From Gracilariopsis chorda (lineage: Eukaryota > Rhodophyta > Florideophyceae > Gracilariales > Gracilariaceae): DNA of 64,000 nt. The stretch covers positions 62,001 to 126,000 of the forward strand of contig NBIV01000223.1 of assembly GCA_003194525.1 (NCBI GenBank). Reading direction: 5' to 3'. Position numbers and translations under genes: made by a program. Shown here in pieces: positions 10,601 to 43,150 of this stretch. The notes beneath the pieces are model-generated. The model saw only the letters and a program-made list of their open reading frames with translations. It was not told the DNA's origin and did not search any database. The stretch's first letter is position 1. Each line of letters starts with the position of its first letter.

Positions 10601-11259
10601 ATTCGGTGGGTAAAGCGGTTCAGCGGAGAAACGCGGGAGGCCTCTGGAATATCGAACATCAAACCCTATCAAACAAACAAAAAATGCGATCCTTCAGTCT
10701 TAAAGATGCACGGGAAACTAGGTATGAAGCTACTCAGAAAAGGACAGTCTTACTAGGTTTTCGACACCAATGCCTAAATCTCACGCTCTGAATACTGGAA
10801 AGAGCAAGTTGGCACATCATGTCTCTGTCGATTGTAATCTGAAGTAACGTTATACCCGTCGTACCTTTGTACCGTTCTAGTAGACACTACAGTAGGATTG
10901 CTACTCAAAGTCGTAATTGAAATTGGTATTTCCGTGGAAGAAGATTTATCGGAGCGGAGCGGTCAAAATGGATCTGAAAATCAGTTTGGGAGCCATTGTG
11001 AGCACGGAACAAGCATATACAGTACGTCCGCCAGCGTCGTCTCCGTGCTTGCAAACGGCTGCGACAAGCTTCGGTTCGCTCCGCGTCTCTGGAAATCGAT
11101 ACGGCTGCTTTATTCCCACTCCTACCACCCTTGGGCGACAGCTACGCCTTGGTAAGGCGCGCTGACCGCAGAATGCAGGTGCATTTTGCGGAGAACGTAG
11201 TGGTGCTACGTTCAAAGCCGTTATCCTAAAATGAAATATGTGTGTTGGTCCGCTACGCG
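10601..11259. other. Intergenic, nothing recognised
   Basis: This is the upstream region of the Nudix gene. Two overlapping plus-strand frames (10898-11165) are open but match no family and have no supporting splice sites or motifs. Confidence 0.4.
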
Positions 11260-11682
11260 TCACCGAAAAGTGTACATTTGGAGTTTCCGAAATTGAGCGA
11301 GACGGACAAGTCTAGAGATTTGCATGCACCATGCCCAGTCCAGCGGCGCTGCTTCCTTCGTGCACACTTCCAGTGCTTTCTCATAGCACTCTATCGCATT
11401 CTCCACATTCCGGCTCCGATCACCTCCAATACGATCTGTAAATGCGGTCCCCAGGTTCATTTGCACCCTTGCCCAGTCCAGCGGCGCTACTTCCTTCGTC
11501 CGCACTTCCAGTGCTTTCTCATAGCACTCTATCGCATTCTCCACACTCCGGCCCCGATCATCTCCAATGCGACTTTGCAATGCGCTAACCAGATTCATTT
11601 GTACCCCTGCCCATGAATTGAAAGATTTCATACCTTTGGTATTTGCCGTGCTATTCCGAGGTGAAATGTTGAGGTCCGCCAC
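11260..11682 (-). pseudogene. Fragment of a TPR protein with 46-residue units
   Basis: Two and a part tetratricopeptide units are visible, of the long 46-residue type common in cyanobacterial and algal CHAT/NB-ARC-associated TPR proteins. Each unit reads like VQMNLGTAFTDRIGGDRS then NVENAIECYEKALEV, TKE and PLDWA. The units repeat exactly every 138 bp (starts at 11609, 11471, 11333 on the minus strand) and are very alike, showing recent tandem duplication. The third unit breaks off after PLDWA into unrelated sequence, and upstream there is no ATG or first helix, so both ends are missing. It is either a relic or an inner exon of a gene I cannot assemble. Such repeats normally bind partner proteins. 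Confidence 0.75.
11333..11620. repeat. 138 bp tandem repeat (TPR units)
   Basis: The word GCCCAGTCCAGCGGCGCT starts at 11333 and again at 11471. A third related start (GCCCATG) lies at 11609, giving an exact 138 bp (46-codon) period. Sequence between copies differs at only a few sites. It codes for the TPR units on the minus strand. Confidence 0.85.
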
Positions 11683-16681: not shown

Positions 16682-17475
16682 TGGAATGCAATGCCCTCAT
16701 GGAATCATTCTTGGTATTTGGATGATTTCCAGAATGTTTCAGTAATGTAGTCATTGCATGAACTACGACCACTAATAGTGAATTGGACACATTTGAAACA
16801 GAAGATTCAATTAGCAGTTGGCCACAGTAGTGCGCATGAACCATCCAATTGGATTAATTTAGTTAATTATATTTATTATTTTTCACACCAATTTCTGGGA
16901 GTGTTAGTACTTGGTGCACCGTCGAGTTACCGTCACACCAGTAAACCTTTCTCAACAAGAGATCCAAGCCTGTGGAATTGGCTCTAGACCTCACCGCCTT
17001 CGCGTGTTCTCTACTCCTCTTTGGAGGGAAGCACAGTGGTGCGGGAAGCCCAACCGCCTTCCTTATCAAAAGGACCCAAGTATTCGGATTGTTATTGCAA
17101 CTGTCTTGGTTTTCGCCTTGTATAAGGTTTATTTACCGGCACTGCCGTTAGTCTTCGTCATGACACTCGTGACTCAGCTCTCTCTTGTTTTTCCCTTTAC
17201 AGGGTGGCTTTCCCGCTACCCACGGCTCGTGTTCGCGCGTGCCCCTAACGTGGAAACCTCACCTATGTGGACGACGACTTCTTCCATACACCGCTCCTGC
17301 GGATACACAATTCTTGCCTCAACCTCCCTGCCCAAGTCATGACGGGTGGCCTCGGCCTTACAACCTGACATTTTCGTGCCACTCCTGGTAGGGCTCTACC
17401 CAACTGGGCTCACCTCTAACAATAAAAGATCCCAGACGTCTTTCGGTGCACTCCTGCTCCAGGCATTGCACTAAA
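16682..17475 (+). repeat. 5' LTR of element I (LTR A)
   Basis: This is 794 bp, starting TGGAATGCAATGCCC and ending GGCATTGCACTAAA. It aligns along its whole length with LTR B, C, D and E. It is richer in A/T than B and C, many differences being G-to-A or C-to-T. A TTGTATAAGGTTTATTTA segment in the middle may hold the core promoter. Confidence 0.88.
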
Positions 17476-17478
17476 AAG

Positions 17479-17490
17479 TGGTCTCCTGAC
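17479..17490 (+). promoter_or_regulatory. Primer-binding site of element I
   Basis: TGGTCTCCTGAC begins 3 bases after the 5' LTR. Element II has TGGTCTCCCGAC at the same place. The complement ends in GGAGACCA, as in the 3' end of some tRNA-Tyr (yeast type), so tRNA-Tyr is a plausible primer (inference). Confidence 0.65.
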
Positions 17491-17593
17491 GTACAATCGG
17501 GAATTTTTTGTTTGGTTCCCTCTTTCGAGGTTTTGTTTCTTTTGTTCATTTTCCGGGAGTTGCGTTGTTTCCCTGTCGTTACGGTTGGCCCTC

Positions 17594-19591
17594 ATGTCGA
17601 GGACGCTTTTCTCTGCGGAGCCTGTGACAACGCGCAGCCGCTCCTACAATGATGGAGATAATGCCGAAGTTCGGCTCGTTTCTCGGATCCTGACTTGGGC
17701 TAAATCCAGCCATGCTGGGGGTGCCTCTTCTAGGACTTCAAAACCACCCCGGGAACCCCGGAAATCCACGTCGACCCCGGTATCGAATGCTGTGGATGGT
17801 GCTCGTCCGGTTCCGGCCGTGGCCGCCGCTGCACCTGAACCCCGTCTGACGGGCGATATCACCCCCAGTGGAATTCCCTGGAATCTCAGTTTCACGCTTA
17901 GTGGACCGCCCACGACACCCTTTTGTGGGGATTACAAACCCTCCGTGAGGTGGTGATGGACATCCCCACAAAGGTGGTTGCAGAGGATCTCCGTATCTTA
18001 CGGTCCGATTTCAACTCTATGTTAGAGAGTTTGGGGCAACCCGCCACCTTCATAGAAGGAGTTGACTCTCGATTCGATCGAGTTCGTGCCCGTCTGGAGA
18101 CGTTAGAGCAGTTTATCCTCATGGATAAAACCGTCCCCGGATGATCCGGCACCAGCTGCGTCACACCACGACCAGCGTGCTGGAAGAAAGAAGCGCCACT
18201 ATAAGCGGAAACACAAACGAGATCACTCGGATTCTGATTCTACGACGTCATCGGATTCATCCCGAAACGGGTCAGATGGTTCTAGTTCGTCGCACTCTGA
18301 TTCGGAGGACGAGAAACGAGGCCGTTCTTCCCATTCTAAGCGGTCATCCGCCACCCAAGGTGGGATTCGGACCCGCAGCAAGGGGAGAAGACACCCTGGC
18401 CTCAGGGAATTAAAACAGACCAACCCGTTGTACCGAAAACTATTGTCATACTGGTAGTATCGGCTCGAAGATTCCTCTTTAGGACGTAAACCCCGTGTCA
18501 TGGGGAAGGTGAAAGAGTGCATAAAACGTATGCAACTCTCACTGCGTAACCATTATTTAACGGGAGAAGACCCAATTATGGTGTTGGACTTTCTTTCTCG
18601 CTTTGTAGCGGAAGCGGATATCCTCGGAATGAATGAGGGACAAGCCTATTTTTGATTACCATATTTCTTACGGGGAGTGGCTCAGGACCAGTACACCTCT
18701 GTCAGAGGATCATCTGATAAACCTGCTGGCCGGAGGCTGTGCAATATTTATTGCGCTCCAATGCCACCAATACCGCCATTCAGGGGGCAATCCTGGCTTT
18801 GCGAGATATTCGTTAGCGCTCGGGCGAGACTGAAACCGATTACTCGGTGCGCCTTAAAAGGACCTTCCACCTTTGTGGGAATGTATAATCTGCAAGGGAA
18901 CGTTTGTACCATGTTCATCGATGGCCTTGACATGGCAATCCGGGGTCTTGTCACTCGTTACCGCGAGGATGATCGGAGAATTACCTACGTCGAGCTTGTT
19001 CAGCACGCTCGAGCGGAAGGGGAAGCACTTCGTGCAAGAACTCCGAATCTTCGGTCTAAGCCCGCCAAGGCGTTGGTGCTGGAGAGTTACTTCTCATCGC
19101 CCTCCAATTTAGCCGATAGAACCCCCCAGAAGGGATACGACACCGTGAATTTAGCACAGAGAGATGGTTTGTCTAGACCAACCACGTACTTACCGTCAAC
19201 GACGGAGGACACGGTCGAAACGGCGCAAGACAACCCCGTATGGTACGTGGCGAACAATCGCTTTCAGCGACCACGAGTCCCGTTTATGAACGGTTAATCC
19301 CACTATCAACGGCCTGGATGGAATTACACCCGCCCTGCGGTACACTTCCCCGATGCCCGGTATATTAACTGGCGCGTCGCCGTGTTAGCTCTCATTTGCC
19401 ATGTTTGCTACACCCATGGCCATACATCCCCTCAGTGTCGTTGCTCACTGAAGGATATGGCCGAGGTGGTGGCAAATTACGAGGACCTCACTCCAGAGGA
19501 GAAACGTTCCGTTCCAACGGCGTACTACTTCCGTGCTAAAACGGACTTCTCGCATGCCTTGCCACATATCCCGCGTGCGCGGCTAGCTTAA
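17594..19591 (+). pseudogene. gag of element I (broken)
   Basis: The frames starting at ATG 17594 contain a Pro/Ala-rich head, then a coiled-coil-like segment (VAEDLRILRSDFNSML, RLETLEQFILMD) and a Lys/Arg/Ser-rich stretch with many SDSD-type runs. The conserved capsid core follows (LRELKQTNPLYRKLLS, GEDPIMVLDFLSRFVAEADI). A zinc knuckle CHVCYTHGHTSPQC (C-x2-C-x4-H-x4-C, about 19400) lies near the end. Element II has the same blocks in the same order. At least four frameshifts or stops break it. Intact, it would form the virus-like particle and bind the RNA. Confidence 0.85.
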
Positions 19592-19750
19592 ATTAACCCC
19601 AATCGGGAAGTCCCTCAAAACTTCCGACGCAACCACCGCTTATGCAGATAAAAACCCCAGCCCCCGGAGCGAAACTCTCATGGTTGAGGTTCCTGGACTA
19701 CCGCCTACGACGGGAACCTCCCAGGAGCACTAAATGAGGAAGTCTCCCCT

Positions 19751-20503
19751 TTGGGAGAGGCGTTCTCAGAGATGAGGCTGTTGACGCCCGAGGTGTCGCC
19801 GCCTCGCTCCCCGGTGAAAATCCTTTCAAGGAAGGACACCGCAGACGCGGACTCTGCACACCTTTCTGTGCTGCATCGCCCGTGGATACGGAGTAAAAAC
19901 CCCTGGATCCCGGATAGAGTCTTGGTCATGGCCAAGCGCAACTACAAGGTTTACGTCGACCTTGGCCTTGAAACCCATTTTATGGTGAGATTTCTAACAG
20001 CCCTGGACACAGGTGCAGGCCCCAACTTCATCGTGGAATCATTGCTACCCCCGCAGATGCGGTCTCGTATCCGTTCCGAAACGGTTACCGACGTCGCAGA
20101 TGCAAACAACAACCCGTTAAAAATGGTGGGCACCGTCAACTTAGTCGTGCGGTTGGGCACCTCCGTGGTGAAGCTCGACTTTATTGTTTGTCGGTCACAG
20201 GCCGCTCCAGTCATGCTGGGATGTGATTACTGCGACAGATTTGGCGACGCAATCAGGCCCGGCCTTAGGAGTGTGGAACTCGACGACGAATCGCCAGTCC
20301 CGATCGTCCGTCGCCCGCTGAAGGGTGCTTCGCAGAAGCAAGTCCCACTACCTGCTGCACATGAACCACCGCCCGCGTCTCGCGAGTCCATCAAACTTGG
20401 AGTAGCAGCCTCTGGTTCTATACCGCCTGAGTCCCAAGTCTGGGTGCAAGTCAATTGCTGTCAACACGGTCTTTGGGTTATTCAACCTCTGTACTCGTCA
20501 TAA
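19751..20503 (+). pseudogene. Retroviral-type aspartic protease of element I
   Basis: The catalytic motif is intact: ALDTGAGPNFIVESL (D-T-G-A), followed by a flap-like region and by APVMLGCDYCDRFG, the usual 'ILGxDFL'-like second motif. It would cut Gag-Pol into mature parts. The frame ends at 20503 and pol resumes in another frame. The start of the domain is not defined because gag and pro were probably made by read-through or frameshift. Confidence 0.85.
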
Positions 20504-20650
20504 GAGAAATACCAGCTCGCGCTGGCGAACGGAATTGTTCACGTTACCCCGGATGCCCCTTTCCGGATACGCGTTGCCAATTTTGACCAACGCCCCCAGT
20601 ATCTGGTAAAGAACCAAGTAATTGGAAGCGTCATTCCACACCCCCTTGGG

Positions 20651-22365
20651 ATGCTCCCAACGAAGATGACGACGGCCGATGTTCTCGGATTGGCCGCCTC
20701 TTTTGAGGAAGCCAACCCCACCACTGACGAACTATCGTCAAAGGAGGGAGAGGATACCGTTGTTTTAGCGTCGAACACCCCGAATAACTCGGAACCGATG
20801 GCCACACCTGTATCACAGGACCATGTTACAGCGTGTTCTGACCGATTGAACCCCATAAAGGCACTGGAAGCTATAGACCTCGGCCATGTACCAGAGTCAC
20901 ACCGCCACAAACTCCGTGCAATGCTACGGGAATTTACCACGATGTGGGATGGCTCGCTTGTTGAGATTAATGCTACGGAACACCGGATAGATTTATTACT
21001 GGGAGCATGTCCGATGGCACAATCCACTTATAGGGCAGGACCGAAAGCTCAGGAAGAGGAGCAGCCCCAAGTAGACAAAATGCTCCGTGCAGGTGTTATA
21101 GAGTTCGCTCAATCACCATGGGCATCCCCATTTCTACTAGCTTTAAAGGCCAACGGAACCTGGAGGTTCTCTCTCGACTACCGCGGGCTCAATTTCGTTA
21201 CTCTTAGGGACACATATCCCATCCCTCGTATGGACAAGTGCATCCACTCCCTTGGAGACGCTATCATGTTCACGGCTTTGGACGCCAATTGGGGTTATTG
21301 GCAGGTCTCTGTTAGACAGGAGGATGGCGATAGGACAGCGTTCACCTGCCAGGCAGGATCGTATCGCTTCAAACGGATGCCGTTGGGTTTCACGAACGCT
21401 CCCGCTACCTTTCAGCGTGCAATACATATTCTATTGAACCGCTTCAAGTGGCGGAGCTGCCTGGTTTATCTGGATGATATTATCATCTCCTCCAATAATT
21501 TGAACGACCATCTCACCCATGTCAGGGACGTTCTGACCGTGCTCCACGATGCGGGAATTACCCTCAAGTTGAGGAAATGCGAGTTTTTCAAAGATACTGT
21601 CAAGTACCTGGGACACATCATCCGTCCAGGACGGTTAATGATCGAGAAGGCTCGAGTCAAGTCCCTCGTTGAGGCTAAGGGACCCCGCACTCAAACGGAA
21701 CTCCGCTTCTTCTTAGGGCTGGTCAACGTCTACCGACGGTTTATCCTGAACTTTTCGGATATCGCGGCACCTTTGATCGCGTTGTTACGCAAAGGAAATC
21801 CACCAAAATTGGGGCCATTCACGCCCAAGCAATCGGAAGCGTTTAACTCCTTAAAGGAAGCTGTGACGTCAGCACCTATATTATCTTTATCCAAAATTGG
21901 ACTCCCGTACTCCGTGGACACGGACTCGAGCGACTACCAAGTTCGTTGTGCTCTTTTCCAAACCAACCCAGAAAGGCACCGAAGGCCAATTGGTTATTGG
22001 TCACGCTCGCTCAATGTCCACAAGCGGAACTACTCTGTGTCGGAGAAAGAGTGTCTCGCCGTCGTTTGGCCACTTTCCACCCTACACCCCTAGCTTATAG
22101 GAGTTCATTTTACCTTATACACGGATCATTCCTCGTTGAGTTGGTTAATGAACATATCCGTCCCTCGGACCGCCTTATGCGCTGGAGACTCCGCCTTGTG
22201 GAATATGACTTCCAAGTCATATATATAAGGGGTGCGCTCAACACCCAGGCCAACGCTTTGTCGCGTTTACCCACAAATGGGGAACCATTCCCAACGGAAG
22301 ATGACGACATTCCATGCTTCATGGCTGAAGAACCGAATGACTCGGAGTGGAAGTTCGAGGAATGA
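20651..22365 (+). pseudogene. Reverse transcriptase and RNase H of element I
   Basis: The RT core is recognisable from the WRFSLDYRGLNFVT block through MPLGFTNAPATFQR to the catalytic LVYLDDIIISS (YLDD). The connection domain (KYLGHIIRPGRL) and the RNase H (LPYSVDTDSSDYQVRCALF, then SEKECLAVVW) follow. The frame stops at 22093 inside RNase H. The domain goes on in another frame to 22365 (RLMRWRLRLVEYDFQVIYI, then TQANALSRL). The order and motif spelling are of the Ty3/gypsy type. The enzyme copies element RNA into DNA in the particle. Confidence 0.92.
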
Positions 22366-22470
22366 CCAGAAGACTGGAATGAAGATGCTGACTTTACCAA
22401 CTTACTTGAATCCCGCGAGACCCCTGAGAACCCCATACTGGAACGTTTTGTACCGGTTTCACTGGAGGAA

Positions 22471-23632
22471 TTGATCCGAGAACAATTCGGTGACCCCTTC
22501 TGTATGAGTATTCGTGCCCGTTTAAACGCTGGTGAAGACCTCCCTTTCGAGGTGAACGATAAGGGCTACCTTGTTCGGTTGGACGAAGCTCGCCCACAGA
22601 TTGTGGTACCTTATCCTTGCAGTCCCACGTGTTACTTCTCTCGCACTATGCGACGCTCAGTGGCCACGTACGTGGGAAGAAGCTCTACCTTACCCTGCGA
22701 AGGACTTTTTACTGGCCCTACATGGCATTTGATTGCTACGCTACTGTGAGTTTTTGTACCGAATGCTCGAAGAACTGGGTGAAGCTACACCGGAACTCGA
22801 AGAAAATGAAGTTATTCCCTGCTAGGGCGCCACTCCAGTTTATCGCAATCGATATTCTCGGACCTCTCTTCACTAAAAAGAGAGGCAACAAGTTCTTGCT
22901 TGTGATCATTGATCGCTTTTCAAAGCTTTTTGGGACTGTCCTTCTTCGAAGGTAACCGCTTTCACGGTGGCCAAGGCTCTCGTAACGCACTAGATATTTG
23001 TCTACAGTCCTCCTGTGGAGGGGCTCTCTGATAACGGACGGCAGTTAGCGTCCACGTTCTTCCAGGATGTCTCTCGCATCCTGGACGTGAAAAACTTGTT
23101 TACGACTACCTACCATCCCCAGTGTAATGGGCAAGTGGAACGGTTCAACCGGACTTTGTTCGCCTCTCTCTGTTCCTGCGTTGCTGATCACCCCAACACT
23201 TGGGACTTGTATTTGGATGCCTGAACATTAGCATACACTACGCAAGCTCACCGGATTACCGGAGTGTCACCGTTTGACTTGGTTCTATCTCGTTTACCCC
23301 CGCCTGTGATGTTAGAATCCCAAGCCACCTTGGACAATTTTCCATCTGTGGGTCGCTACCGCCAGGAATGGAAGCAATGGTTTACTATACTGCTCCCCGC
23401 AGCGCAAAAGTCTATGGAAGGCGCACACGCCCCGTACCAGCAGGATTTTGACGCTCGTGTACAAGATAATGCTCCCCGCATACGGGCTAATATCTACGTC
23501 TTCGTAAGTAAGGAATATTATAACCCGGAATGGGAGAAGCATCACAAGCGTTCGACTGTGGCGGCTGGACCACTTAAAGTGGTGTCCGTTAAGTCCAACA
23601 CATTCCTATTGGAAATGGGCAAGGCACACTAG
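22471..23632 (+). pseudogene. Integrase of element I
   Basis: In order there is a zinc-binding HHCC head (SHYATLSGHVRGKK with CTEC), the first catalytic Asp in FIAIDILGP, the second in LSDNGRQL and the Glu in YHPQCNGQVERFNR. The chromovirus C-terminal region follows, with HRITGVSPFDLVLSRLPPP. Frames shift near 22740, 22960 and 23225. All three catalytic residues are still readable. The intact enzyme inserts the new DNA copy, making the 5 bp duplications seen here. Confidence 0.9.
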
Positions 23633-23639
23633 CGGATTT

Positions 23640-25100
23640 GTCGCGATCGTATTGTACCTCCCCTTCTTCCTCGTCTGAGTTAGTCCTGGAAACAGGGAAA
23701 CCGTTCTCTACGAACTCAGCAACGCCGGAAACCCCAGAAATAAATAGAACGACTACTCTACCACATCCTAACGCGGGCCTCTCAGATTTATCGACTTTGT
23801 CGGAACCCCCAGCTTGACCGGATCGTTCATTTCCAAACATACCTTTGTGTACTCCTAACACCACGGCCCCTTCGGCGCGCTTCTACACCCTCCATGCTGG
23901 ATATCCTACTACCACCCCCCTTGCTCCGTCTAAGGAGAGGGAGGGGACCTATCACAACGCTGGAAATTTGTTACCGTCGCAACAAGATTTGAGCCATGGA
24001 ACACGGAAGGTCGATGAAGCCTCGCAATCCACCACACAGGCTTCCAGAACGACCCAGTTACAACGTATGATACGAAAGAGTGGACGGACATCGCAGTCTG
24101 CCTCCCTGCACCAGGGCAATTCCCGGAATCAGGATAGCGATATCGTTTCGCAGACCCCTCACCAGGGCGTAGTTGCAGAGCCGTCGTTGACAGAATTTCC
24201 CGCCAAAACGGATTCCCCAGCACCATTCACACCGCTGATAGCCGGCAGCAACGCACGCGTTGGAAAACCAGCAACGCTGGAAAGTTAAGAGACCCTCTTG
24301 AGGGAGGAAAGCAGGAATGCACCTCTGGCAACTCAAGTCCATGGCTCTGCAGCCCCGGACTTGAGAACCATTCAGAACGGGAATATTGTCCGTATTTTGG
24401 AGATAGAAGTGCCGAAGTCTCCGCGCAATCGCGGTAATATACCGAGCGTCTCTGAAAAATTCGGCGTCGTCACCAGGGTTAAACCGGTCGTCCCGGATGA
24501 TGCATCTCCTGAGGAACACGTCACACCTCAATTGGTGGCAAAGTGCCCGAACAGAGCGTCCACGCCACCAGCTGTCCAAGCCCCATCAGGGAGTTTGAGG
24601 CAACACACTGGAGCACCTGAAGTACCCACCGGATACCGGATGCCAAGACAGTAGTGCACGGCTCAGCCGGACATTGTAAGGCCCAAGCCAATGGAGGCGG
24701 AACGCAAGGAGGTGGTTCAGAACCACATGCCGTGGGAGTCACATGAACGCACGGAGATTGTGCGCCCCGCACCAATCACCGCACGACGCGGAAAGCCCCA
24801 CCAGAGAATGACCTCCAGAACTCAGCCAAAGCGGCAAGAGGCTCGGAAGCCCGCGGTTCGACCGTACTACCGTCAACATGGGACGGAGGACCCCGGCAAA
24901 CTAGCGGTACGACCCAATTACCGCAGTACGCGGCAACCGTTCCACGAAGACACCCTTTTGAGGGATATTATTCCGCACTCTGCGCCGCATCCTCCAAGCG
25001 AAGCCAGCACATTGCATCCTGACGCACTCCTGAGGGGAAGTATGCTGTCCAATGGGCAGCCCTTGACAAGCGAAGCCACCAGACATGGCAAGCCCGGCAA
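23640..25100 (+). other. Linker region between integrase and chromodomain, element I
   Basis: Open frames such as 23845-24288 and 24691-25122 are rich in Thr, Pro, Ser and Gln and have no fold I recognise. Element II has a similar proline-rich stretch at the same place (41300-42200, -). It probably encoded a flexible tail of Pol. Confidence 0.55.
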
Positions 25101-25313
25101 GTATACCAACAAGAATTTGTGATTGACCGAATCGTCGGGCACACCTGGAATCAGGAAGGTATTATAAGATACAGCGTCCGCTGTTACGGATATGACGCAA
25201 GCTGGAACACCATGGAGCCCATCGAACACCTCCCTCGCTCGAAGGGGGTTCAATATCACCGCAGCGCGGGTACCGCAAATCCAGCTACGCTGTGCAACGC
25301 CCAAGTGAGATAA
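25101..25313 (+). pseudogene. Chromodomain of element I
   Basis: The frame reads EFVIDRIVGHTW, then RYSVRCYGYD and MEPIEHLPRSKGVQYH. This fits the chromodomain pattern of a first aromatic strand, Y-x-V-x-W/C-x-GY, a WEPI-like turn and a final helix; the Trp of 'TWEP' is Met here. Chromodomains at the Pol C-terminus steer integration to marked chromatin. Element II keeps the same domain (EFVIDTIVNHEF, RVGWYGYPPE, LEPIEPLPRSK). The frame is open to 25313. Confidence 0.8.
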
Positions 25314-25605
25314 ACACCCTGCGAAGCCGGGGAAGGTAGGAAAGAAGGTGTAAACCCTCTTTTTTATGGACTCCGTCAAGGACAGGAATGAAAGAGAAAA
25401 CGCCGTTCTAAACGGGAAAGTTTACTCAGGAGCCTCGCGCTCCTGTGTGATGCTAAGCTACATTACTGGCTTAGCCATGAAAAGAGACCAGGATACTGGA
25501 TTAAAGGTTCGACCCCTCCTCATCGTCCGGGGCGTGACCACTCGCAAGGCGGTAAGCCAAGGCATCCGCCATCGCGGTGACGTCACCCGAAACCTCGGCA
25601 GCGCG

Positions 25606-27524
25606 TCAACCCGCTCCGCGGAGGAAGTGGGCAATGACATCGCTTTCACTTACTGTACCCCCGCTTGGGAGTGAATGCCCAGCGCTCGCCGTTAGACAAC
25701 AGAGAACCGGAAGCACACCCTCGGAAGATTCGTCTACGATCATGTCGGCAACATCTAGTTCAATGTCCCCCGGCTCTTTGGGTTCGTTATCGACCATGAG
25801 GTAATCCCCGCTATACGCGCGGTAGTAATCGTCGGAATCGACGTACTCAATCGGGTGGTCGTCCGGCACGTGCCGCGGTGCGTCGCAGCGTTACCTCGCC
25901 TCTTCGGAGGAAATCTCCCGGAACTCCCAGGGATCGAAGTAGATCAAGTCCACCTAAAGAGCAGTGTTTCTATCAAGACCCGGACTACCGGTACCACTAC
26001 CGCCACCGCCAAGCCGACCGCTCTGCTCCAGTGGGACCTCGCTCAGTCAATACTGTCGATCAAACCAAGTATCTGGAATACTTCATCATTGTTGGCAATG
26101 CCCCCAAATGGGGACATTGAGGTCCAAATTTCGAATAGCGGCCCGCACACGTGGTTGAATGAACCACAGTCGATACTGGTCATTAACCTCAGCGAGGATA
26201 TACGCTGCAGTGCGGGCAGCCCACTCGGTTACGACTACTGACCAAAGCCCCGACCGGGGATCCTGAATCAAAAAGGAACCGAGGTACGTGAGTGCTGGCG
26301 GGAGCTCAACGTAGCAACCCCGGCAGGCTTCAAGGAACCTCCACCACTCGGGGAGTGCGACATACCGACCGTGTCGGTGAGGCGGAGCAATCCGCTCAAT
26401 CGCCACGTTTTGATACGGGACAAAGTACCCGAATCGGGATCGCCAGTGCCGTTCATAATGGATGACGTTTTGGAGGACGTTGGACCGGGACTGCTGGGAA
26501 AGGTACCGGAGTTCAGCCCAAAGTATCGGTCGTTCCCAACACAGGGCTTCTTGCCGCGCAGCGTGAAAGTTCCTTTATTCCATAGTCTCGACGCTGGCCA
26601 GGCGTTCGCCGTAACCGATTTCATCGCGCGTGCTTAATAGGCTGAGGTCAAAGCCAAAGCCGATAGGCACCGGGAATTCGAAAGGCCCCCGGCTCTGCCG
26701 TTGAAATGCAATCTGCACCAGTGCCGCATGAGCTGCAATCGCGGATTCTCAATATTTTCTTCGGATATGGTGCACCAGGATGGCGATTCGATTCTGCCAG
26801 ACTCTCGACGAGGTGAAGAGGCTGGGTAGATCCCCGGACAAAGAACCGGAACCATCCGCGTAGGCCGTAACCAAATCCTCGTTGAGGGCAGCGATGGGAT
26901 GGAACCACGGCGCAAGCCGGAGCCGAGAGGCATGACTGCGATTCATTGGATCCAACCCTAGAAGGGCGTTATAAGAAGGCCAAGTCGCCGCCGGGATCAA
27001 TCCGGAAGGAGCCACCGCTGGTGGAAATTGGAACCCATGCTAGGACGCTGTGTCGGAGTTTGTCTCCCTTGTGGCAAGGGTACCGACCGGAAATCGGTTG
27101 TGAAATTCCCGACTGGAGTCGGTCTTAGAGGCTGGTTGTTGTTCATATTCCCCTTCGAAAGGGTGTGATATGATTGAGTTGAGCAGGAAGAAGATGAGCG
27201 TGCACTTGTGGAAGGCTGGTTCGCTGCTTTTGTAGGAGGTTGTTTCTCTGAGGCAGAGGCTTGACCCGGTGACTCGGAGAGGTTTGGACTTTTATCACCC
27301 AATTTCCGCTGGCATTCGCCCGCGTCCGCGGTTGCTTTCCCGACTAGGGAGGGGGTTATGAAGTGCAATGCCCTCAGGGAGAGATTCTTGGTACTTGGTT
27401 CATTTCCCGAATGCTTCGGTAATGTATTAATTGCATGAACTACGACCACTAATAGTGGATTGGACACGTGGGACACGGAAGTGTCAATTGGCGGTTGGCC
27501 ACAGTAGTGGGCATGAATCACCAA
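25606..27524 (-). pseudogene. Antisense reading frame of element I (unknown conserved protein)
   Basis: On the strand opposite to gag-pol, one frame running from 27015 to 25606 codes for blocks also found antisense in element II. These are APWFHP (about 26905), WAELRYL (about 26515), CRGCYVELPPALTYL (about 26310), DQYRLWF (about 26150), a YFDPWEF block and VPDDHPIEY (about 25865). Stops interrupt it at 26749, 26575, 26086, 26083, 26047, 25954 and 25891. An upstream frame (27524-26997), Ser/Pro/Gln-rich, starts inside the 3' LTR and leads into it. There is no signal peptide or known fold; composition is rich in Trp and other aromatics. No function is claimed. Confidence 0.7.
27346..27355 (+). 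promoter_or_regulatory. Polypurine tract of element I
   Basis: AGGGAGGGGG lies 3 bases before the 3' LTR start at 27359. It is the expected plus-strand primer. Confidence 0.7.
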
Positions 27525-28151
27525 AGTGGAGTAATTTAGTTAATTCTATTTATTATTTTTACACCCATTTCTGGGATGGTTAGTACTTAGTGCGCCGGCG
27601 GGTTGCTGTCGCACCAGTAAACTTTCCCCAACCAGGGACCCCAACCTGGGGAATTGGCTCCAGACCTCACCGCCTTCGCGTCTTCTCTACTCCTCTTTGG
27701 AGAAAAGCACCGTCGCATACGGGAAGTCTAACCCCCTTGCCTATCTAAAGGACCAGAGTATTCGGATTGTTATTCCAGCTCTCTTGGTGTTCGCCTTGTA
27801 TAAGGTTTATTTACTGGCGCTGCCGTTAGTTTTCGTCACGACACTCGTGACTCAACTCTCTCTTGTTTATCCCTTTACAGGGTGGCTTTCCCGCTACCCA
27901 CGGCTCGTGTTCGCGCGTGCCACTAACGTGGAACCCTCACCTATTTAGAGGACGACCTCTTCCATACACCACTCTTACGGATACCCGATTCTTGCCTCAA
28001 CCTTCCTGCGCAAGTCTTTACGGGTGGCCTTGGCCTTACAACCCATTTTCGTGCCAGTCATGGGAGGGCTCTACCCAACTGGGCTCACCTTTAACGAGGA
28101 AAGATCCCGAACGTCTTTCGGCGCACCCCCACTTCCGGGCATTGCACTACA
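27359..28151 (+). repeat. 3' LTR of element I (LTR B)
   Basis: This is 793 bp, from TGAAGTGCAATGCCC to GGGCATTGCACTACA. The ends form a 15 bp inverted repeat with one mismatch. It is closer to solo LTR C than to the 5' LTR A. Confidence 0.9.
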
Positions 28152-31362: not shown

Positions 31363-33037
31363 TTATCGCAAACCGCAAGGAGTAGAAAGCCTATATAAAT
31401 GGTCTTTGGAAACAGCTTTCGACATGATGTGCGCTGTTTGAACTTTGCTTTGAATATGCGAGATACTTAGGACCCCAGACTTCACAAGTTCTGTAACTTG
31501 ATTGAACTTCAGTGCAATGTGTTTGTTACTTTCAGAAGTCTTGCACGCATTCACAATAGAATTTGCAGTGGAGCTGTCTGTACGAATACGAATTGGGTAT
31601 ATGTCATTCGGATTATCTTCAAGAATGGTACCATTTAGAAGCTCCCAAACCAGTCTTTGTAACCACGTTAGCAGCTTCCCACAATACCAGAGAGCAATTT
31701 ATTCACCTTCTACAGAAGACAAAGCAATGATTGTCTGCTTCTTCGTCGTCCATAACACGGGTCCATCATTCACCTTCACTAGTAGGCCAGTTGTAGACTT
31801 CTAGTTTTGCGAAAACCAGCCCAGTCCGCTTTACAGAATGCTCCCATCGGAGCACGACTTCCTAACTGGAAGTAGAGACAAAGGTTCTTTGTTCCTTTGA
31901 AGTATCTTAAGATGCGTTTCTTTGCTGCAAGGTGCCTGTGACAAGGATTTTGTACCTGTTTCGCCAACATTGATGCCCCGAGTATAATATCAGGCTTCGA
32001 TGCCACCGCCAATTACATCAGGTGACCAACCAATTTACGGTGTTTTGCGTGAAATAATGGTGGAAGAATTTTTTCAATATGAACTCTCACTGAAACAGTA
32101 CAAGGTGACGTGAATGGAGTCTTTGCCTGGTTCGCATTGCAGAGAATGTATTCCCGAAGTAGTTTTTCCACATACCTCTCCTGGCTTGCACGAGTGCCGT
32201 TCTTATCTCTTTGTAGTTCTAGATCAATGAAAGAATTGGCCTCACCAAGAAGTTTTACTTGAAACAGTTTCTTCATTTTGGCCTTAAAGTCTTCCAGGAG
32301 AGACTTTGAATCGGACATAGTCACAATGTCGTGTACAAAGACGACAATAATTATTGTGCCACTTCCTGACCTGTAATTGTACAGCCTACTGTCCGTCTTC
32401 CACTGCTTGAATCCCAGTCGAACTACCTCTGTGTGCAAGGGAGATCCCCAAATTTGTCCCGCTTGCTTTGCACCGTAAATGGATTTCAACAGTAAGCAAA
32501 CTTTACCAGGAATATAAGGGGAGCCAGAGACATTCTGGGGTTACTCCATTATCAACGGTTCTTCTGGATCACCGTAAAGGTAAGCGTTGCTTATGTTTAT
32601 GGTCTCCAAAAGCAGTTTCTGTGCGGCTGTCTTGGCTAAAGCTAGTCGGAATGTTTTGAGCCAAGCCACAGGTGCGTACAGATTGTCAGGATCGTAGTCC
32701 AAATCTGGTCTTTGCATGTCGCCTCTTACGACACATCAAGCTTTGAGGAGAATTTCTGGAGGACTTATACTTATATATTTCCAGTTAAAAGTTCACAGGA
32801 ATGGAAGGCGTTTCATTCCTGCCTTACTTTCAATGAATCTCCAAGTTTTTCTTTCAACGACAGCATCGTATTCCCTGTTGATTACTTCTGCCCATTCGGG
32901 AATATTTCTTGCTTCCTCAAAGCTATTCTGTACCTTAAACGAGTCGTTTCCATCTTTCGAGTGAAAGTGTGCAACTAAGCAGTGCACAAGAGTGGCGTCA
33001 TGGTACTCCTCTTCTTATTCATCGAGTCGCTTCTCTG
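31363..33037 (-). pseudogene. Copia reverse transcriptase and RNase H (broken)
   Basis: In minus-strand order the pieces are the RT entry SFEEARNIPEWAEVINRE with ERKTW (about 32930-32850), then KSIYGAKQAGQIWG (about 32480). FVHDIV follows, where the family has YVDD, so the catalytic pair is damaged. Then come QRDKNGTRASQERYVEKLL, KRILRYFKGTKNLCLYF and the RNase H end HIALKFNQVTELVKSG with HIMSKAVSKDH. Several frameshifts and stops separate them. The order and spelling are those of copia-type polymerase. Confidence 0.85.
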
Positions 33038-33950
33038 TGTAGTGCAATACGTTCCCGCGTACGGGCGATGGTGAAACTCATATCTGAGGTGTACTCGGTG
33101 CGAGCGATGAAGCGGGATGCATGAATTTTAGCCCCCGTTTACCGGGCTAATTAGCGGTCGGGTTACCCAGGGTGGTTATGGGAACATTCATATTTTGCGG
33201 TACTTGCCTGGCAAGGGTGGTGGACACGTGGCTACAGCCCCGGCCAGGAGGCCCAAAACGGCTACTTATTTTAGTGTAGTTTAGGGGTTAATTTTACTTA
33301 GTCTAGTGCACTACCTACTGTACTGCACTGAGCTAGTACTTGAGCGTCGGCCGCACGACGGCAAGCTCACCAAGAAAAGGAACAAGAGTTCGGCTCTGAC
33401 TCTATTCGCCATGCGAAGTGTCTAACTCCTCGCGGAGGTACACCGCTTGCCCGATAGTTTCACCCGACTCGCACCACCGAGGAGACCGTGCTCGTCGTAC
33501 CCAGTGGGTTGTGACCACTCGTGGTATTCATTGTTGTCGTGTGACCGCCCGTACAGGCCCTATCTCCGCCCCAGTTTTGGGTATTGATATTACCGACGTG
33601 TGTCGTGAGACCGTGAGACCATCTCTTCCCCTCATATCCCCTAACCGCCGCGCGGTGCGTGTTCGTGTGTGTGTATCGGCACCCCCCTCCGGGGTCTGTT
33701 CCCGCTTTCCACACGCCCCCGTCGGGTGGTCCCTTTCCCTCTTTTGTTCCCTTGTTCGCAGGCTACTTCCGGACCAGCCGTGGTTCCGACCCGTTCTAAC
33801 CCCTAAACCTCCGAGGTACATCCAGGCTCCCGACGGAGTTACACCCGTCATACGGGACACGGAGGGCTCTACCCAGCTGGGCCTACCTCTCCAAGAGAGC
33901 AAGGCTTCGAGCTGCCTTGGGTGCCTTTCCCACACCGGGATTGCACCACA
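33038..33950 (+). repeat. Solo LTR Y2 inside copia integrase
   Basis: This is 913 bp, starting TGTAGTGCAATACG and ending GGGATTGCACCACA. Ends are inverse copies but for one base. It is flanked by a perfect duplication CTCTG (33033-33037 and 33951-33955). It is on the opposite strand to the copia element it interrupts. Confidence 0.92.
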
Positions 33951-33955
33951 CTCTG

Positions 33956-36152
33956 CTTTTCTCCGGCTCAAGGAAGAGAAGTCAAGTAGCGTGTTTATGG
34001 ATGGTAGATAGTCGTTTGATACCTTGAAACCTTTTTGCCTGACAATGATCACCTTCTCGATGGAAGGAATGTAAACTCTGTATATCGTTTGAGTGCTTTG
34101 CATTCCAACGAAGTGTCCCTTCAAAGATCGAGGTAGTAATTTCTCGTTCGGTGCAGTATCAGAACGATCAATATACGCATGAACTTTTTGTCCGAACCTA
34201 AATAGAGCGGAGAACTCGGGCTTTTTACCAAATAATTCCGTGTAAGGGACCTTCATGCCGATTCTGGAGTTAAGTAGGCGGTTGCGTATCCACTTTTCAT
34301 GGGATATGGCTTCTTCCCAAAGCTGTAGTGGTAGTTTGGATGCGTTGAGAAATGTTCGAGTGGTCTGCCACAAATCCTGGATGATTTTCTCAGCTGCACC
34401 GTTCGACTCGTGTGCATAAGGTGGTGTGTATTCAAGGATTATTCCATAGTTCAATACATAAATGAAGAACTCGTTCGCTTCATTCTCACCCGCTCCCTCA
34501 AGGCAATGGCGGTATAGATTGCTCCTTGGCTGTTCATTTTCAGCGAGATCCTTCTACCACTTTATGGAGAAGAAGAACTGTGATTCAGTCGATAGGTAGT
34601 TAATCGACGATGCTATTGTGTGGTCATCAAGGAGTACCTGCATGTACTTTGATCCTTGTGATGACGGTGGGGTGATGGAAACAGTTAGGTCTGTAGGCGT
34701 GAGCTCCAGTGGGGAAGCTGTTAAAGGTGAAGATCGTTGTAGTGGGGCTCGTCTCGATCCTGCTTCTAGTCATGGTGTGCAGTAGATGTTTTGAACATCG
34801 GATTGGGATAGATCGGGTACACCGTTGGACTGGTGGACGGTAAAGAGTAGTCGAGTTTTTCCCGGATGTCTTTGTTTTTCGAGCCAGTCTTTTGCTGTGT
34901 CTCCAGGTGCTGTAAAATTGGTCTTGGAACGGAGCGGAGGGATTGGGTTTGGTAGTGGATAAAGTCCCTTCTTCGCTGCGCATTGGTGGAGCAGTGCTTG
35001 GATTCAAGAATCCTTTATGATAAAACCGGGAAAGGTATTATCACTACTGAATATGACAGTAGCATAATCTGCAAGTACTGATAGAGAGACGAGATTGGAA
35101 TCAAATGACAGATTGTGTTTTGCAAGTAAAGAGATTCCATCTCCTAAAGGCATCATGACCGTTCCTTTCCTTGGTATCCAGACTTTCTGTCGCATGTACG
35201 CACTGATTGATTCTCCACGGCTTAATAATCCCGGGAAAGGGCTCTATCGTTCACGAAAACATGACTTACGCCACAGTCCAATCATGTAACTGCCTCATGT
35301 TCGTGAACAGATAGTTTTGACTGTGTTATAGCAACAAACCCACGAGGTTCGGTGTTCTGTGTATCGGGGTTGGGCTTGCTGGAATTTCTTCCGCTGGAGT
35401 CCCATTCCTTCGATCTGAAGTTACTATTACGCATTCGGTTTGAAGATCGTTTCCGGTTGTCCTCGTTTGGTTTGGATTGTTTTCTCCAACGATACTGGGA
35501 TCGAATAGGGCCTAGTCTTCCACAATTACTGCATCGAACCGTTGTGGATCTTCTACACTGCTTTAAGATTGCGGTTTTGGACTTCCAAGCGGCTATATGG
35601 GGGTATTGGGAACCACTTTGTATACCAATGGTTTTGATGGTACTAGTGGACTCACGATGTTTGCGGCGATCCATTTCAGAACTTATCAACGAGACCATCT
35701 GGTCATGTTCCATGTTATTGGCATCTGCGAGTAATGTTATTGCCATTAATGAGCCTGGTAAGGTTCGCAATAAACAAGCTGTGCTCCGTATCGGTTAATG
35801 GATCTCCGAGACAAGCAACCCCAATGAATATTGTTTCCATATCGTGGAGATGTTCGAAAAAGTTCCCGTCTTCATTGAACACAAGACTGTTGAGACGTTG
35901 TCGAAGAATATTCGTTTGAATGTTGTCTTTTTTGTAAGTAGTCTCAAGCTTGGTCCAAAAGTCTAATGCAGAACACTGCAGTCTTTCAAGAAGCTCTGAC
36001 ACGGCAAAAGTTGGCTGAGTACCAAGAATCTGCACAATAAGTGATCGTGCTTTTCTATCTGCGTCGTCCGATCGGTGGCGAGCTTGGGCAGAGCTCTCAC
36101 TTTCTAAGGGGTGGGCATCCGTTAATACAAAGAGAACTTGGTCAGCGTTCAT
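33956..36152 (-). pseudogene. Copia gag, protease and integrase (broken)
   Basis: Gag starts MNADQVLFVLTDAHPLES at 36152 and holds a UBN2-type block (FWTKLETTYKKDNIQ, LRQRLNSLVF, FFEHLHDMETI). A zinc-knuckle remnant CSNCGRLG has lost its His and last Cys. The protease site is readable as LDCGVSHVFVND (family 'DSGASxH'). NLVSLSVLADY is the pre-integrase block. The integrase end keeps the catalytic Glu in YAHESNGAAEKI and GKKPEFSALFRFGQKVHAYI. It breaks at solo LTR Y2. Confidence 0.85.
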
Positions 36153-37902: not shown

Positions 37903-38732
37903 TGATGCCAAACCGTGAGTTAACGGAGGAAACCCGTTACCACGGACGGGAAACCTCGAGGTGTTCAGCCTTGCTCCCCTGTATGAGTTAACTCAGCCGT
38001 AGATCCCTCCGAGTAGTCGGTGCGTGCCGGGCGTAATTCCGGGCAACTACGTCCAGCCTTAGAGACGAAGGTGTGTAGGATGGCTTAAAACCGGGGATCC
38101 GGATGCACCGGGCCACGGCTATCTCCAGGGACCAGAATGGGCAAACAACGACGAGCCGCACTGCGGAGCACTGAATCGTGATAACGATAAATGATCCCGA
38201 GGCTTCGGGGCAAACCTGGACACAGGGCGGAGTAGAATGAGCCGTGACACGCGTAAGTAGACCAAATAAAGAAACAAATAAAGAAACCAGTACCGTCACT
38301 AACGGGTGGTCACTCCTCGGTGAGACGAGGGGGATAACTAGACCAGAAGCGGTGAGGGGACCCTCCAAGAGTGAAGTTGTACCCGTGCACCGACCGTGAA
38401 GTTAGAGCCAAGTCCCTCGTTGGGGTTTTACTTTAGGGAGGAGTGACGGCGGCCGCTCCCTTAAATACTATACCTGAAAACATTCAGTAAAATTCACTAA
38501 GTATTCCGGCACAGCCGGACCCACGTGTGCTACTTGGTCCGTGGGCACGGAGCACCCCGCTAGTCGGGCGCATTACGTCCCAAGTGTACTATTATTACCC
38601 TCTATACAGAGGTACCCCCTAATGGGGCTGTCAGGTGACGGATACTCATATACAACCTATCCACCCCGGGGATACCGGCATCCTGTTATGAAGAACGGTT
38701 TGATCCCCTCGTCCTGAGAGCATATTGCACCA
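37903..38732 (-). repeat. 3' LTR of element II
   Basis: This is 830 bp. In element orientation it starts TGGTGCAATATGC and ends GGCATCA, next to a strong polypurine tract. It aligns over its full length with 48795-49624. Confidence 0.92.
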
Positions 38733-40665
38733 CCCCTCCCCCTCCTTGGGCTTGAACACCTCACCGCACCGCGGGCGATTCCATCAACGATCGGCGTAAG
38801 TACTCAAGACAACTCGAGCAAGATGACTGAAATATCGGAAGGGCAATGCGAACTCGCGCTTGTGTCCTACGAAACTTCTGCAAGGCATCAAGTCCCCTTT
38901 GCAATGAGGGACTACAACCATCTTCTGACCAACCCTTCTGCAGGGCCTTCGTCTCTGCGCATTCCGCGATATCTGCGGCGTACTCTGGCTGCCCGGCTTT
39001 TTGTGACCACGCAACCACCGTTTAGCTCAGTGCCGTTGCCCGCTCCGCTGTCGACTCCTCCACCGTCCTTGGCTCCTGTTGAGAATGTTTCCGCAGCTGC
39101 GGGAGCAACCGCATTTCCGGGATTGGAGTGAGGCAGCTGGCGCTTCACCGGTGGCGCCTAGCAGACAGTGGCTGTCGTACGGGTGTCTCCAAATTCGGAC
39201 TCTTTCCATCCACTGTGAGTGGTTTGCCATGGCTCCATGGTTCGTCCCCGATGCTGTTCAGGACACTCAGCTGATCGGCTCGTACGCAGTTGATGGCATC
39301 CGTCCCGGCGGGTTGCCGTTATCCGTTGTCCGGTCATGGGACTGGCGCGCACACATTGCGCTTCCCACTTCGCTGTTGTAGTGGGCTCCGCATGAGTCGG
39401 AGCGACGCGCTTGAGACGAGATGGCCCGACTTGGGTATCGCCGAGTCCATGGGTTGGCCAACGAGGTGCCAGCTCCCCCACATTACGGGTTTGATGTTGC
39501 GTATTACCGAACATACGGAGAAGGGTCCTATGGAGACCGTTTGTACGGGGTCTTTCCCGAGCTGGACCAATACGCGGAAAGCATGCAGCCGTAACAGGAC
39601 CTGATCCTGTGGACCCGTCTGATTGTTTGGGCAGAATACCGGTATCTCCGGAAACGCTGGTCCGGTGAGTTATTCGAATGGATTCGCTTCGAGTGGAAGC
39701 AACGTGCCAGACGGGGTCTTCCGGTTCCATACCAGCAAATTGATATCGAACGCCTCGATTGGAGGGCTTGGGATCGCTATGTCCCGCTGCCGGCGTTCTG
39801 GACGGTGGTAGAGGTCTCAAGAGGGTGTAACGTGGAGTTACCTCCGTGTCTCACCTATTTGTACTCACGGTTCCTGAATAACCCGCCTGGTGGTCTTTGG
39901 AGTCTTCTCTTCACTGAGTGGATGGTCCAGGTTGCGGCTTTCCTCCTGTGGGAGGTGTACGACAAGTACCGGCTTTGGTTCTTGCCGAAGCTGCTCCATC
40001 AGTCCATTCGCGTCGTTGATATCTCCGAGGTACTCGGTTACGAGCGTAACCCGGGTGAAGCCACCAGTTTGGTGGACATCATTGACGAAGTCGATTGGGA
40101 CATCGTTCCCGCCACGCAAGCGTCGGAGCAAATTCGCCGCCGTTGGGACAAGACTCCCGGGCGGAATGTCGCAGCTGGCGACTTCCTGTTCTTCTACCCA
40201 TGGGAATGGGAGTTCATCAACGCCGCAGAAGCAGGTCAACGCCGCTAAGCCGAGCGGGTGATTCCGGACGGGCATCCATGGGGCTTCGTCTTCGTCGAAG
40301 AAAACAACGCCGAGGGAGCCGCCGAAACGGATGAGCCCATGGTGGATGGGAGCGAGGGGGTCGCGGAGATCGATATTACCGACGACGTCGTGGCATCTGG
40401 TGGAGCGGGTGGTTTCCAAGTGGGAGGAACCATGACTCCAGTGGCTTCGCCCTTGGTGGGAGCTTCGGGCAGCAGTGCCGACCCGCAAGTTGCGGTAGTA
40501 CGCCAGTTCCTTACTGGGCTTCGAGTGCCCGTCCCACCGACGGTGACTTCCCTTGCAAAGTTGCAGGCACTGGACTCCGAGTACCTGCAGGGAGGTGGTG
40601 GTGGCATTAGCCACGGCGGTTACTCCTCTGGTATGGGAGGGTCGTCCCCTGATATGGGTAATTAG
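38721..40665 (+). pseudogene. Antisense reading frame of element II (unknown conserved protein)
   Basis: Opposite to gag-pol, a frame is open from the LTR edge through the polypurine tract to 39131, Pro/Ser-rich near its end (SSVPLPAPLSTPPPSL). The next frame takes over at about 39079 and runs to 40665, with stops at 39379, 39412, 39592 and 40246. Blocks shared with the antisense frame of element I, in the same order, are APWFVP, HYGFDVAYY/YGDRL, WAEYRYL, IERLDW, RYVPLP, SRGCNVELPPCLTYL, GLWSLLFTEW, DKYRLWF, FFYPWEWEF and VIPDGHPWGF, then an acidic and Gly-rich tail. Length without stops is about 600 codons. No known fold is recognised. Confidence 0.75.
38733..38747 (-). promoter_or_regulatory. 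Polypurine tract of element II
   Basis: In element orientation it reads AAGGAGGGGGAGGGG directly before the 3' LTR. Confidence 0.9.
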
Positions 40666-40871: not shown

Positions 40872-41735
40872 TCAGCCGACCTGGGCATGACCCATTGTAG
40901 CTGGGATTGACGTCCGCGTCCTGTGGTGGTACTGTAGTACCTTTGAACGAGGGAGAGGCTCGATGGGCTCGAGAGTTTCCCTTTCAGGGGGGTACCCGTA
41001 CCAACCGACTCGGTATAGTAGCTCCCCGTCGCGGTTGAACTCGTGATTCACGATAGTGTCGATGACAAATTCCTTGTCGTAGACTTCTTGCGATTTATGT
41101 GGCGCGGCTTGTCCCTTGGTCGTGGAGTCCTGTCCGCTAGGGATGCGGTTCCCAACGGTGTTGGAGTTCCGTGTCAACGGTAACGCGTCCCGGATGCCAG
41201 GTTTTTCTCCTTTCTTATGCCAGGAGGAACCTGGGAGGTTGACGATCCGTTCTTCGGGTGGCTCTACGTTTCTCGTCGTGTTCTGCAGGCGAGCGTGAGT
41301 CACTTCCAGATGCAAGTCATCCCGGGTAGCCAACTTCCTTGGCCTAGGTGTGAGGTCCCGTGTTGATGGTGTAGCTCCCGCTTCGTGCTCGCTCAGCGTT
41401 CGGAGTGCGGTCACCTGCCGTGGCGCCGTTTCGCCATCAGGTGTGTGGGTGCCAGTGCCAACCGTCGTGTTGTGCGCGGGTGTGCCGTTAATTTCGGAAG
41501 TTTCGAATTTCGGCTCTGACCGATGCAATACGGGGTCACGCTCAACGCGTGTGGAACGGTGCCGCAGTGGAAGTTCTGCCTCCACGGCGTGTGGTGCTCC
41601 CCCTTTATGGGGCTTTTCCTTCAAGTCAGCTGAGCTCCTTCTGGGCTCAAGGTGCATGCGCTCTCCGTTATTTCGGCACTCTTCCGTCGGCTGCACAGTG
41701 TCTTCTGTGCCTCCCATTACCGGGTCTGCAGTCAC
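40872..41735 (-). pseudogene. Chromodomain and end of Pol, element II
   Basis: The frame is open for 287 codons and ends at 40872. The first 200 residues are charged and Thr/Pro/Arg-rich linker. The chromodomain lies at the end: EVYDKEFVIDTIVNHEF, RVGWYGYPPE, LEPIEPLPRSKVLQYH. Compared with element I, the Trp in GWYGY is retained, giving a more canonical cage residue. Confidence 0.82.
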
Positions 41736-41791: not shown

Positions 41792-43150
41792 CTACATCCT
41801 TAGGCAGCGCGCCGCCATCGGTGGGGCTTTCACTCGCATCTTGTGCTCTAGCGGTGCCGGTACGGACTGCAAGCGAGCAGGATCCCCCTCCCCCTCCTTG
41901 GGCGGAGAGGTGGGACTCGAAACGAGGATCCCTGTATCTGGGGCGATGCGCATATGCCCTCGCGTGCGAGGCGACGAGGTCTGGTGGTTCCCCAATTCCG
42001 TTGGCAGGTCGGCGAGGCCCCGTGCTGGGTGGGGCAGGAATGGGAGACGGGTTATCTCCCTCTTGATGCGGGGCCATGAGTCCGATGGGCGCTCTCCCGT
42101 GGCTTCGGGCGATTCTCTTGCCATCGGAGACGGTTGGGGAGCGCGAATCACGCGTTCATGCGAAATAAACTCGTGTCGCCCATTAATATCAAGGAAAACC
42201 ATGTCAGCGGTGGTAGAGACAACCCTGTTGGGTCCATCTGCGATCAGAGACAGTTTATGTCGCCGTTCGTTTTCGGGGTTGTAATACTACTTACGGAGGA
42301 ACACGAACTCGTGGGCACCGATGTTCGGAACGCGATCTACCTTTGCGTCGAAGTTCCGCTTGTAAGCAGATTGTGCCTTGGAAATGGCTTTCCGTAGGAC
42401 GTCTGGTATGTTGGTTAACCAAGCTTTCCAGGTGTCCCTGTGCTGCCGGTGTGACGGGAGCTTATCCCACGTGGGTTGGAGCTCGATAGCCACTGGCGGT
42501 GGAACTCTAGAGAGTACCAATTCAAATGGAGAGATTCCGGTGACCTGGTGGACCTGCGCATGGTAGGCGTAGATCACCGCGTCGGTTTAAAGGTCCCATT
42601 CAGTGGGGTGATCCACAACGAACGTCCGTAGGGCGTTCAACATGGTGCGGTTGAATCTCTCCACCTGCTCGTTTGCCTGCGGGTGATAGGTGGTGGTAAA
42701 CCAGTTCTTGATGTCAAGAATACGACACACGTCCTGGAAGAATTTCGCAGCGATTTGCAAGCCATTATCCTATAACAATTCAATTGGGGGACCGTATGTG
42801 AACACCCAATGGGTGACGAAAGCCTTCCCGACGGAGGTAGCTGAAATCTTTGAAAGGGGAACAGTCCGCACAAGCTTCAAGAACCAGTCAGTGATTACCA
42901 GCAAGTAGTGGTTACCCCGAGGTGTTTGGACAAATTCCCTGAGGATTTCGATAGTGACAAACTCCAGGGGGGCCCGTGCCGGGAAAAGAACCAACTTCTT
43001 GGCATATTTATGCAGCTTAAAGTTGTTCCTTGCGCAGTGTGAACATCTACGAACTGTTGTGACATAGGCGTCCACCGCCATGGAAGACCAATAAAAGTCC
43101 TTTCTCAAGGTTTAATACAGCTTCCGTCCGCCTGGATGGGAGGATAACTT
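41792..43150 (-). pseudogene. Integrase of element II and proline-rich linker
   Basis: The integrase pieces run from RKDFYWSSMAVDAYV and CSHC, through FVTIEILREF and DNGLQIAAKFF, to YHPQANEQVERFNR and GISPFELVLSRVPPP. The first catalytic Asp is Glu here (TIEIL against AIDIL in element I), the other two catalytic residues remain. Stops separate three pieces. The linker (42202-41792) begins VFLDINGRHEFISHERV and is then Pro/Arg/Ser-rich. Confidence 0.85.

Follow-up and report, generated by a model that had tools for sequence, protein, structure and literature searches.

Some plant and fungal retrotransposons carry additional genes on the strand opposite to gag-pol, as set out in the consulted sections of a review (PMC7264820). 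The plant aORF-3R genes, namely gene23 of maize Grande, RIRE2 of rice, ORF4 of Silene Retand and PvRetro13 of bean, lie between pol and the 3' LTR and are conserved like the proteins of the element itself; Grande has its own antisense promoter and transcript. Retand is described, in the excerpted text of a more specific study, as a non-chromovirus lineage, nearly all clusters with antisense ORFs carrying the TRP28 domain (PMC11963269). In fungi, brtn of Boty / BcGypsy1 from Botrytis cinerea is an additional antisense gene of a gypsy element (PMC7264820, in part), and HBZ of HTLV-1 and other retroviral antisense genes lie close to the 3' LTR (sections of PMC7264820 and PMC11963269). Among the open-licence PMC papers listed in our searches, neither a title nor the beginning of an abstract dealt with an antisense gene in red algal retrotransposons. 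Here, we describe such a gene in chromoviruses of the red alga Gracilariopsis chorda. In place and orientation it is like the plant and fungal antisense additional ORFs, as far as these are presented in the sections consulted (PMC7264820, PMC11963269, PMC8365987), and it shares with aORF-3R the site between pol and the 3' LTR, the strand opposite to gag-pol and a conservation like that of the element's proteins. Grande, RIRE2 and PvRetro13 are likened to it by description, the protein-level comparison having covered Retand's TRP28 domain only; brtn, whose host is a fungus, is also likened by description and not by sequence.

The window analysed, a stretch of 64,000 nucleotides, contains two elements with this gene. 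Element I (about 16682-28149, + strand) is bounded by LTRs that are 86% alike, the 5' LTR at 16682-17473, which starts with TG, and the 3' LTR at 27359-28149 (blastn, 16687-17473 with 27364-28149; the inner end of the 5' LTR and the outer end of the 3' LTR are approximate). The same strand carries the RT / RNase H part of pol at 20651-22093 (Pfam RVT_1, 7.9e-32; RT_RNaseH_2, 2.1e-23), the integrase part at 22614-23722 (tblastn with the pol of locus L042 as query) and the chromodomain at the pol C-terminus at 25080-25307 (tblastn with the L042 pol C-terminus). A decayed copy of the antisense gene occupies 25501-27146 on the minus strand, about 550 codons from an ATG at 27146-27144 to a TAA stop at 25503-25501, and the L042 antisense protein matches it at 27018-25546 with 49.5% identity (tblastn). 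Thus, the chromodomain piece ends at 25307, the antisense gene follows, and the 3' LTR begins at 27359; about 210 nt separate this LTR from the coding start further in, a polypurine tract (27346-27355, +, read from the sequence) falling between the two. The original prediction had recognised the gene at this place, but its bounds of 27015-25606 were too narrow at both ends.

Element II has its 5' LTR at 48795-49623 and its 3' LTR at 37903-38731 (both -, 92.5% alike), the integrase part of pol at 41834-43210 (-, tblastn) and the chromodomain at the pol C-terminus at 40875-41141 (-, tblastn; Pfam Chromo, 1.7e-06, within 40872-41735). Its decayed antisense copy lies at 39106-40470 (+; C223:101106-102470) and is 69% identical in amino acids to that of locus L034. 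In both elements the frame is opposite to pol, with the chromodomain on one side and the 3' LTR on the other. Pfam named Chromo in element II and in L034, and the order of RT, RNase H, integrase and C-terminal chromodomain is that of chromoviruses (Ty3/gypsy), a class assigned here by the domain content and order of pol; the chromodomain also sets these elements apart from Retand. What we take, from familiar motif patterns, to be a zinc-knuckle and a protease-like motif are present besides the antisense gene.

The LTRs of elements I and II gave no blastn match to each other, in keeping with the divergence first noted between them. Nevertheless, as had been claimed, the motif pairs APWFHP/APWFVP, WAELRYL/WAEYRYL, CRGCYVELPPALTYL/SRGCNVELPPCLTYL and DQYRLWF/DKYRLWF occur in the same order in I and II, and the frames can be aligned over more than 400 codons: 421 codons align, with differences of 0.513/0.425/0.715 at codon positions 1/2/3 (pN 0.462, pS 0.807). 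A tblastx comparison of the antisense region with the window returned antisense/antisense matches (E 4.5e-37).

Other features of the window were recorded as well. Two stretches outside elements I and II resemble the element I LTR (49997-50789, 93.6% similar; 51272-52100, inverted, 71.8%) and are solo LTRs or parts of a further element. Copia-type pol pieces (RVT_2 and a retroviral SH3-like domain) lie between elements I and II at 32013-34454 (-). An uninterrupted frame of 2527 residues at 55089-62672 (-), with HSA, SNF2, helicase C and a weak Myb match, is read as a large chromatin remodeller; further host genes are eIF6 (54105-54995, +), RabGAP-TBC (7575-9125, -), NUDIX (9491-10672, -) and a SLAC1-type channel (1993-3162, -). 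A 138-base tandem duplication, 87% alike, is found at 11329-11604.

Both window copies of the antisense gene are broken. Over the 590 codons that can be compared with locus L045, the element I copy is interrupted by 7 stops (a single-frame read shows 8 X), and its frame shifts somewhere in the range of about 27070-27040; the element II copy has 4 stops. In the genome searched (91.3 Mb, 1081 contigs), many copies elsewhere have open antisense frames of 540-682 codons. When the element I region was used as a DNA query, 40 of 562 candidate matches were scored, all but that of the window itself at 84-90% identity, so that the family of element I (family I) has at least 40 copies of the antisense region, copy numbers here being lower bounds. 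With the L034 antisense protein as query, 50 of the 76 matches listed from 1538 candidates (75 scored) combined an open frame 540 residues long or longer with a match free of stops; with protein P0002 this was so for 60 of the 82 listed from 1742 candidates (71 scored), the 11 second-piece matches not being taken as passing. These open-frame matches include many near-identical copies of few families and are not independent. L039 and L040, counted as young by their mutual likeness, are both open and differ by 0-0.6% per codon position.

The relation to pol was assessed at 39 loci (L009-L047). Twenty of them are family I copies; 8, including that of the window itself, belong to the element II group, and the remaining 11 fall outside both. 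L001-L008 did not enter the set, being the window's own element or lying inside fetched loci. All 39 were chosen by the antisense gene, so the share of chromovirus copies without it cannot be read off. In each of the 37 loci with a pol match, some of which retain only a C-terminal piece because the locus is short, pol is on the strand opposite to the antisense gene; tblastn with pol gave no match in L021 and L031, and L040 has one additional small same-strand pol piece at its edge. The two genes are arranged tail-to-tail, their stops being 191-407 nt apart in 10 of 11 open loci measured, with L047 as the exception (1448 nt). In 8 of the 11 loci the antisense open frame has, no more than about 120 nt from its 5' end, a purine tract that includes at least five consecutive G; L040, L041 and L042 have only weaker candidates there.

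In order to assess selection on the frame, we aligned the codons of eight open frames from different families over the core (336-343 codons). Same-family doubles were dropped (L034 of L036, L040 and L044 of L039, L043 of L042), and the frames were picked as open, hence the absence of antisense stops is by choice. In the antisense frame all 28 pairs had a pN/pS below 1, averaging 0.47 and ranging from 0.23 to 0.61, and in each of them the differences followed the order third > first > second codon position, the third-position excess expected from the original prediction. The integrase, used as a positive control, gave the same order in 15 of 15 pairs.

Within family I the pattern is different. 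Among 21 copies (20 loci and the window copy) the differences amount to 0.085/0.074/0.098 by codon position, a slight third-position excess, and singletons number 299/263/291, while the fixed differences between family I and its sister family L045 are 0.13/0.108/0.36. Since copies decay near-evenly after insertion, selection must have acted before insertion, as had been proposed for this gene. By segment, the fixed differences are 0.093/0.061/0.348 in the core and 0.045/0.068/0.409 in the C-terminal piece, with a weaker excess in the N-terminus (0.209/0.233/0.43) and the linker (0.141/0.154/0.321), and no excess after the antisense stop (0.305/0.283/0.288). Before the proposed start they are 0.306/0.188/0.347, at about 49 sites each, so this stretch is near the non-coding level, if not perfectly flat. 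This profile fixes the end of the gene well and its start fairly; related frames share similar MN.. starts, which supports the ATG at 27146.

These profiles bear on the possibility that the antisense transcript itself is the product, forming dsRNA with the genomic RNA and so tuning silencing, a role that the consulted part of the review proposes for antisense ORF regions of plant elements (PMC7264820). A function at the RNA level does not predict a third-position excess confined to the limits of the frame, nor a pN/pS below 1 in every one of the 28 pairs, and we regard it as quite improbable in place of a protein, although a transcript function can hold alongside one.

The antisense gene diverges alongside the integrase, and over deep distances its conservation is the weaker of the two. 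Identities of the two proteins correlate with r=0.91 over 15 pairs from six families, which are not independent of one another; family I, represented for the integrase by L016 in place of the mosaic L028, is 83% identical to L045 in the integrase and 80% in the antisense protein. At deep distances the antisense core retains 43-62% identity against 65-79% for the integrase, i.e., it evolves faster. In 400-base bins compared with L045, the two antisense core bins are at 76-82% and the integrase bins at 75-83% (the latter without L028, as a mosaic, L021, which has no pol, and L019, in which these bins lacked a counterpart); identity in the stretch that links integrase to chromodomain is 50-60%.

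Two side observations were made in this comparison. L028 (G000:C165) is 97-99% identical to L045 over two 400-base integrase bins and 80% or less elsewhere, which suggests recombination between families, or an assembly join. The integrase-chromodomain linker, several hundred residues rich in Ser/Thr/Pro/Arg (L037, L039, L042, L044 and L045; about 23723-25079 in element I of the window), evolves very fast, both of its flanking ends being conserved.

The joint history also speaks to the origin of the gene. A gene of the host or of another transposon, captured once and carried passively, would fit the finding that Pfam and protein-set searches revealed no known relative from which the origin could be told. 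However, passive carriage is at odds with the co-divergence with integrase over families, with pN/pS values of 0.23-0.61 and with the orientation facing pol in 37 loci with pol (loci chosen by the antisense gene), and it appears highly improbable. Capture may still be the ultimate origin of the antisense gene.

The open antisense frames encode about 520-690 residues. A variable N-terminus precedes a core of ~340 residues, which an acidic linker joins to a short, conserved piece at the C-terminus. The core is arginine-rich, with many invariant aromatic and arginine residues. Lysine is scarce: eight antisense proteins of 519-669 residues have 1-6 lysines each, and K/(K+R) is 0.02-0.09 in all eight, in comparison to 0.29-0.36 in five pol proteins encoded by these elements and 0.18-0.43 in five host proteins of the window. 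Shuffling of bases within codon positions predicted 5-7 lysines per core, and 0-4 were observed (0-1 in six of the eight cores; the 4 of L041 and L036 are not clearly below the prediction). P0004 and P0008, two distant homologues, contain 15 and 20 lysines. Lysine-desert proteins of the ubiquitin system have long conserved stretches without lysine, according to the excerpts consulted (PMC10169902, PMC10665810); the likeness of the antisense protein to them is one of composition only.

In hmmscan searches against Pfam-A, ten members of A2 (E<=1) and eleven of A3 (E<=10) matched no family, TRP28 / Transposase_28 (PF04195) included, and the PDB search gave no convincing relative. HBZ is a smaller bZIP protein, whereas the seaweed antisense protein matched neither bZIP nor any other Pfam family in these searches. 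Two structure models reached mean pLDDT values of 46.8 and 44.2, too poor for a fold to back any biochemical role. In a set of 5.8 billion proteins, with ~7,990 candidates scored per search, 11 homologues were found: BWQ96_03215 and BWQ96_10156 of Gracilariopsis chorda, FGB62_50g12 of Gracilaria domingensis, one from source lgn and seven from ENA. The initial remark that the protein has no recognisable relative thus stands for the characterised families searched and fails for unannotated proteins. Residues 1-491 of BWQ96_03215 match the genome at 100%; this gene model is without the stretch after residue 491 that related frames have, and its matches come in two pieces.

The properties of the protein also bear on whether it could be envelope-like, or a protein of the particle surface, encoded in reverse orientation. 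Its position is that of env-like genes in other elements, yet such genes lie in the sense orientation in the review, as far as the sections consulted go (PMC7264820), and a membrane-spanning segment would be expected. In segments tested from seven antisense proteins, no 19-residue window exceeded a Kyte-Doolittle value of 1.30. The usual membrane threshold is about 1.6. Neither the sense orientation nor the membrane-spanning segment of env-like genes is therefore found, and we consider an envelope role to have very little probability.

The six-frame comparison of the eight cores settles the remaining question of the coding strand. The five other frames contain 2-22 stops per core, and mean pN/pS is above 1 in two antisense-strand and two sense-strand frames. 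The similarity could be the shadow of a sense-strand gene sharing third codon positions, as sense frame 1 does with pN/pS below 1 in 28 of 28 pairs, but this is next to impossible, given that this frame has 6-18 stops in each of the eight cores and a higher mean pN/pS (0.605), that it would need its second position to evolve faster than its first (antisense position 1 exceeds 2 in 28 of 28 pairs) and that no sense gene was seen whose codon evidence across this stretch equals that of the antisense frame. A chance or shadow frame is thus ruled out by pN/pS in six frames, stops and codon-position order; of the six frames compared in the eight families, it is the antisense one alone that shows coding behaviour. 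The original prediction had named two results that would speak against the gene, namely a third-position excess in a sense frame and none in the antisense frame, and the lack of an intact antisense frame in any younger copy. Both were examined, and neither refuted it.

We conclude, with a probability of about 0.9, that the gene is real, belongs to a chromovirus clade and codes for a protein that was under purifying selection at the amino-acid level during the active life of the elements; its 3' end is turned towards that of pol, in the interval from chromodomain to 3' LTR. As judged from sequence, it is best read as a putative accessory protein gene placed like the antisense additional ORFs of other elements; a relation to TRP28 of Retand was not detected. 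Its transcript would start on the side of the 3' LTR, with the promoter placed there as a guess only. The chances are about even that the product is a trans-acting accessory factor. Such a factor would aid the element's own cycle by binding the nucleic acid or the Gag/integrase particle of that element, or it might act by countering the host. Lysine scarcity could help the protein to escape ubiquitin tagging, a link to ubiquitin that we consider unlikely. Lentiviral accessory proteins work at host ubiquitin ligases. Slightly less likely still is the more specific possibility that the gene encodes a family of unseen fold, fixed in a red algal chromovirus clade and lysine-poor by selection, which would act at host ubiquitin ligases against restriction.

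Three public 'hypothetical proteins' of seaweeds are explained by this work as homologues of a transposon gene. The presence of such a gene in a red alga, in several diverged families, with many open copies and codon-level evidence of selection on the protein, points either to repeated origins of antisense accessory genes or to their great age. The protein family offers many natural variants and, in its very low lysine content, a testable clue.
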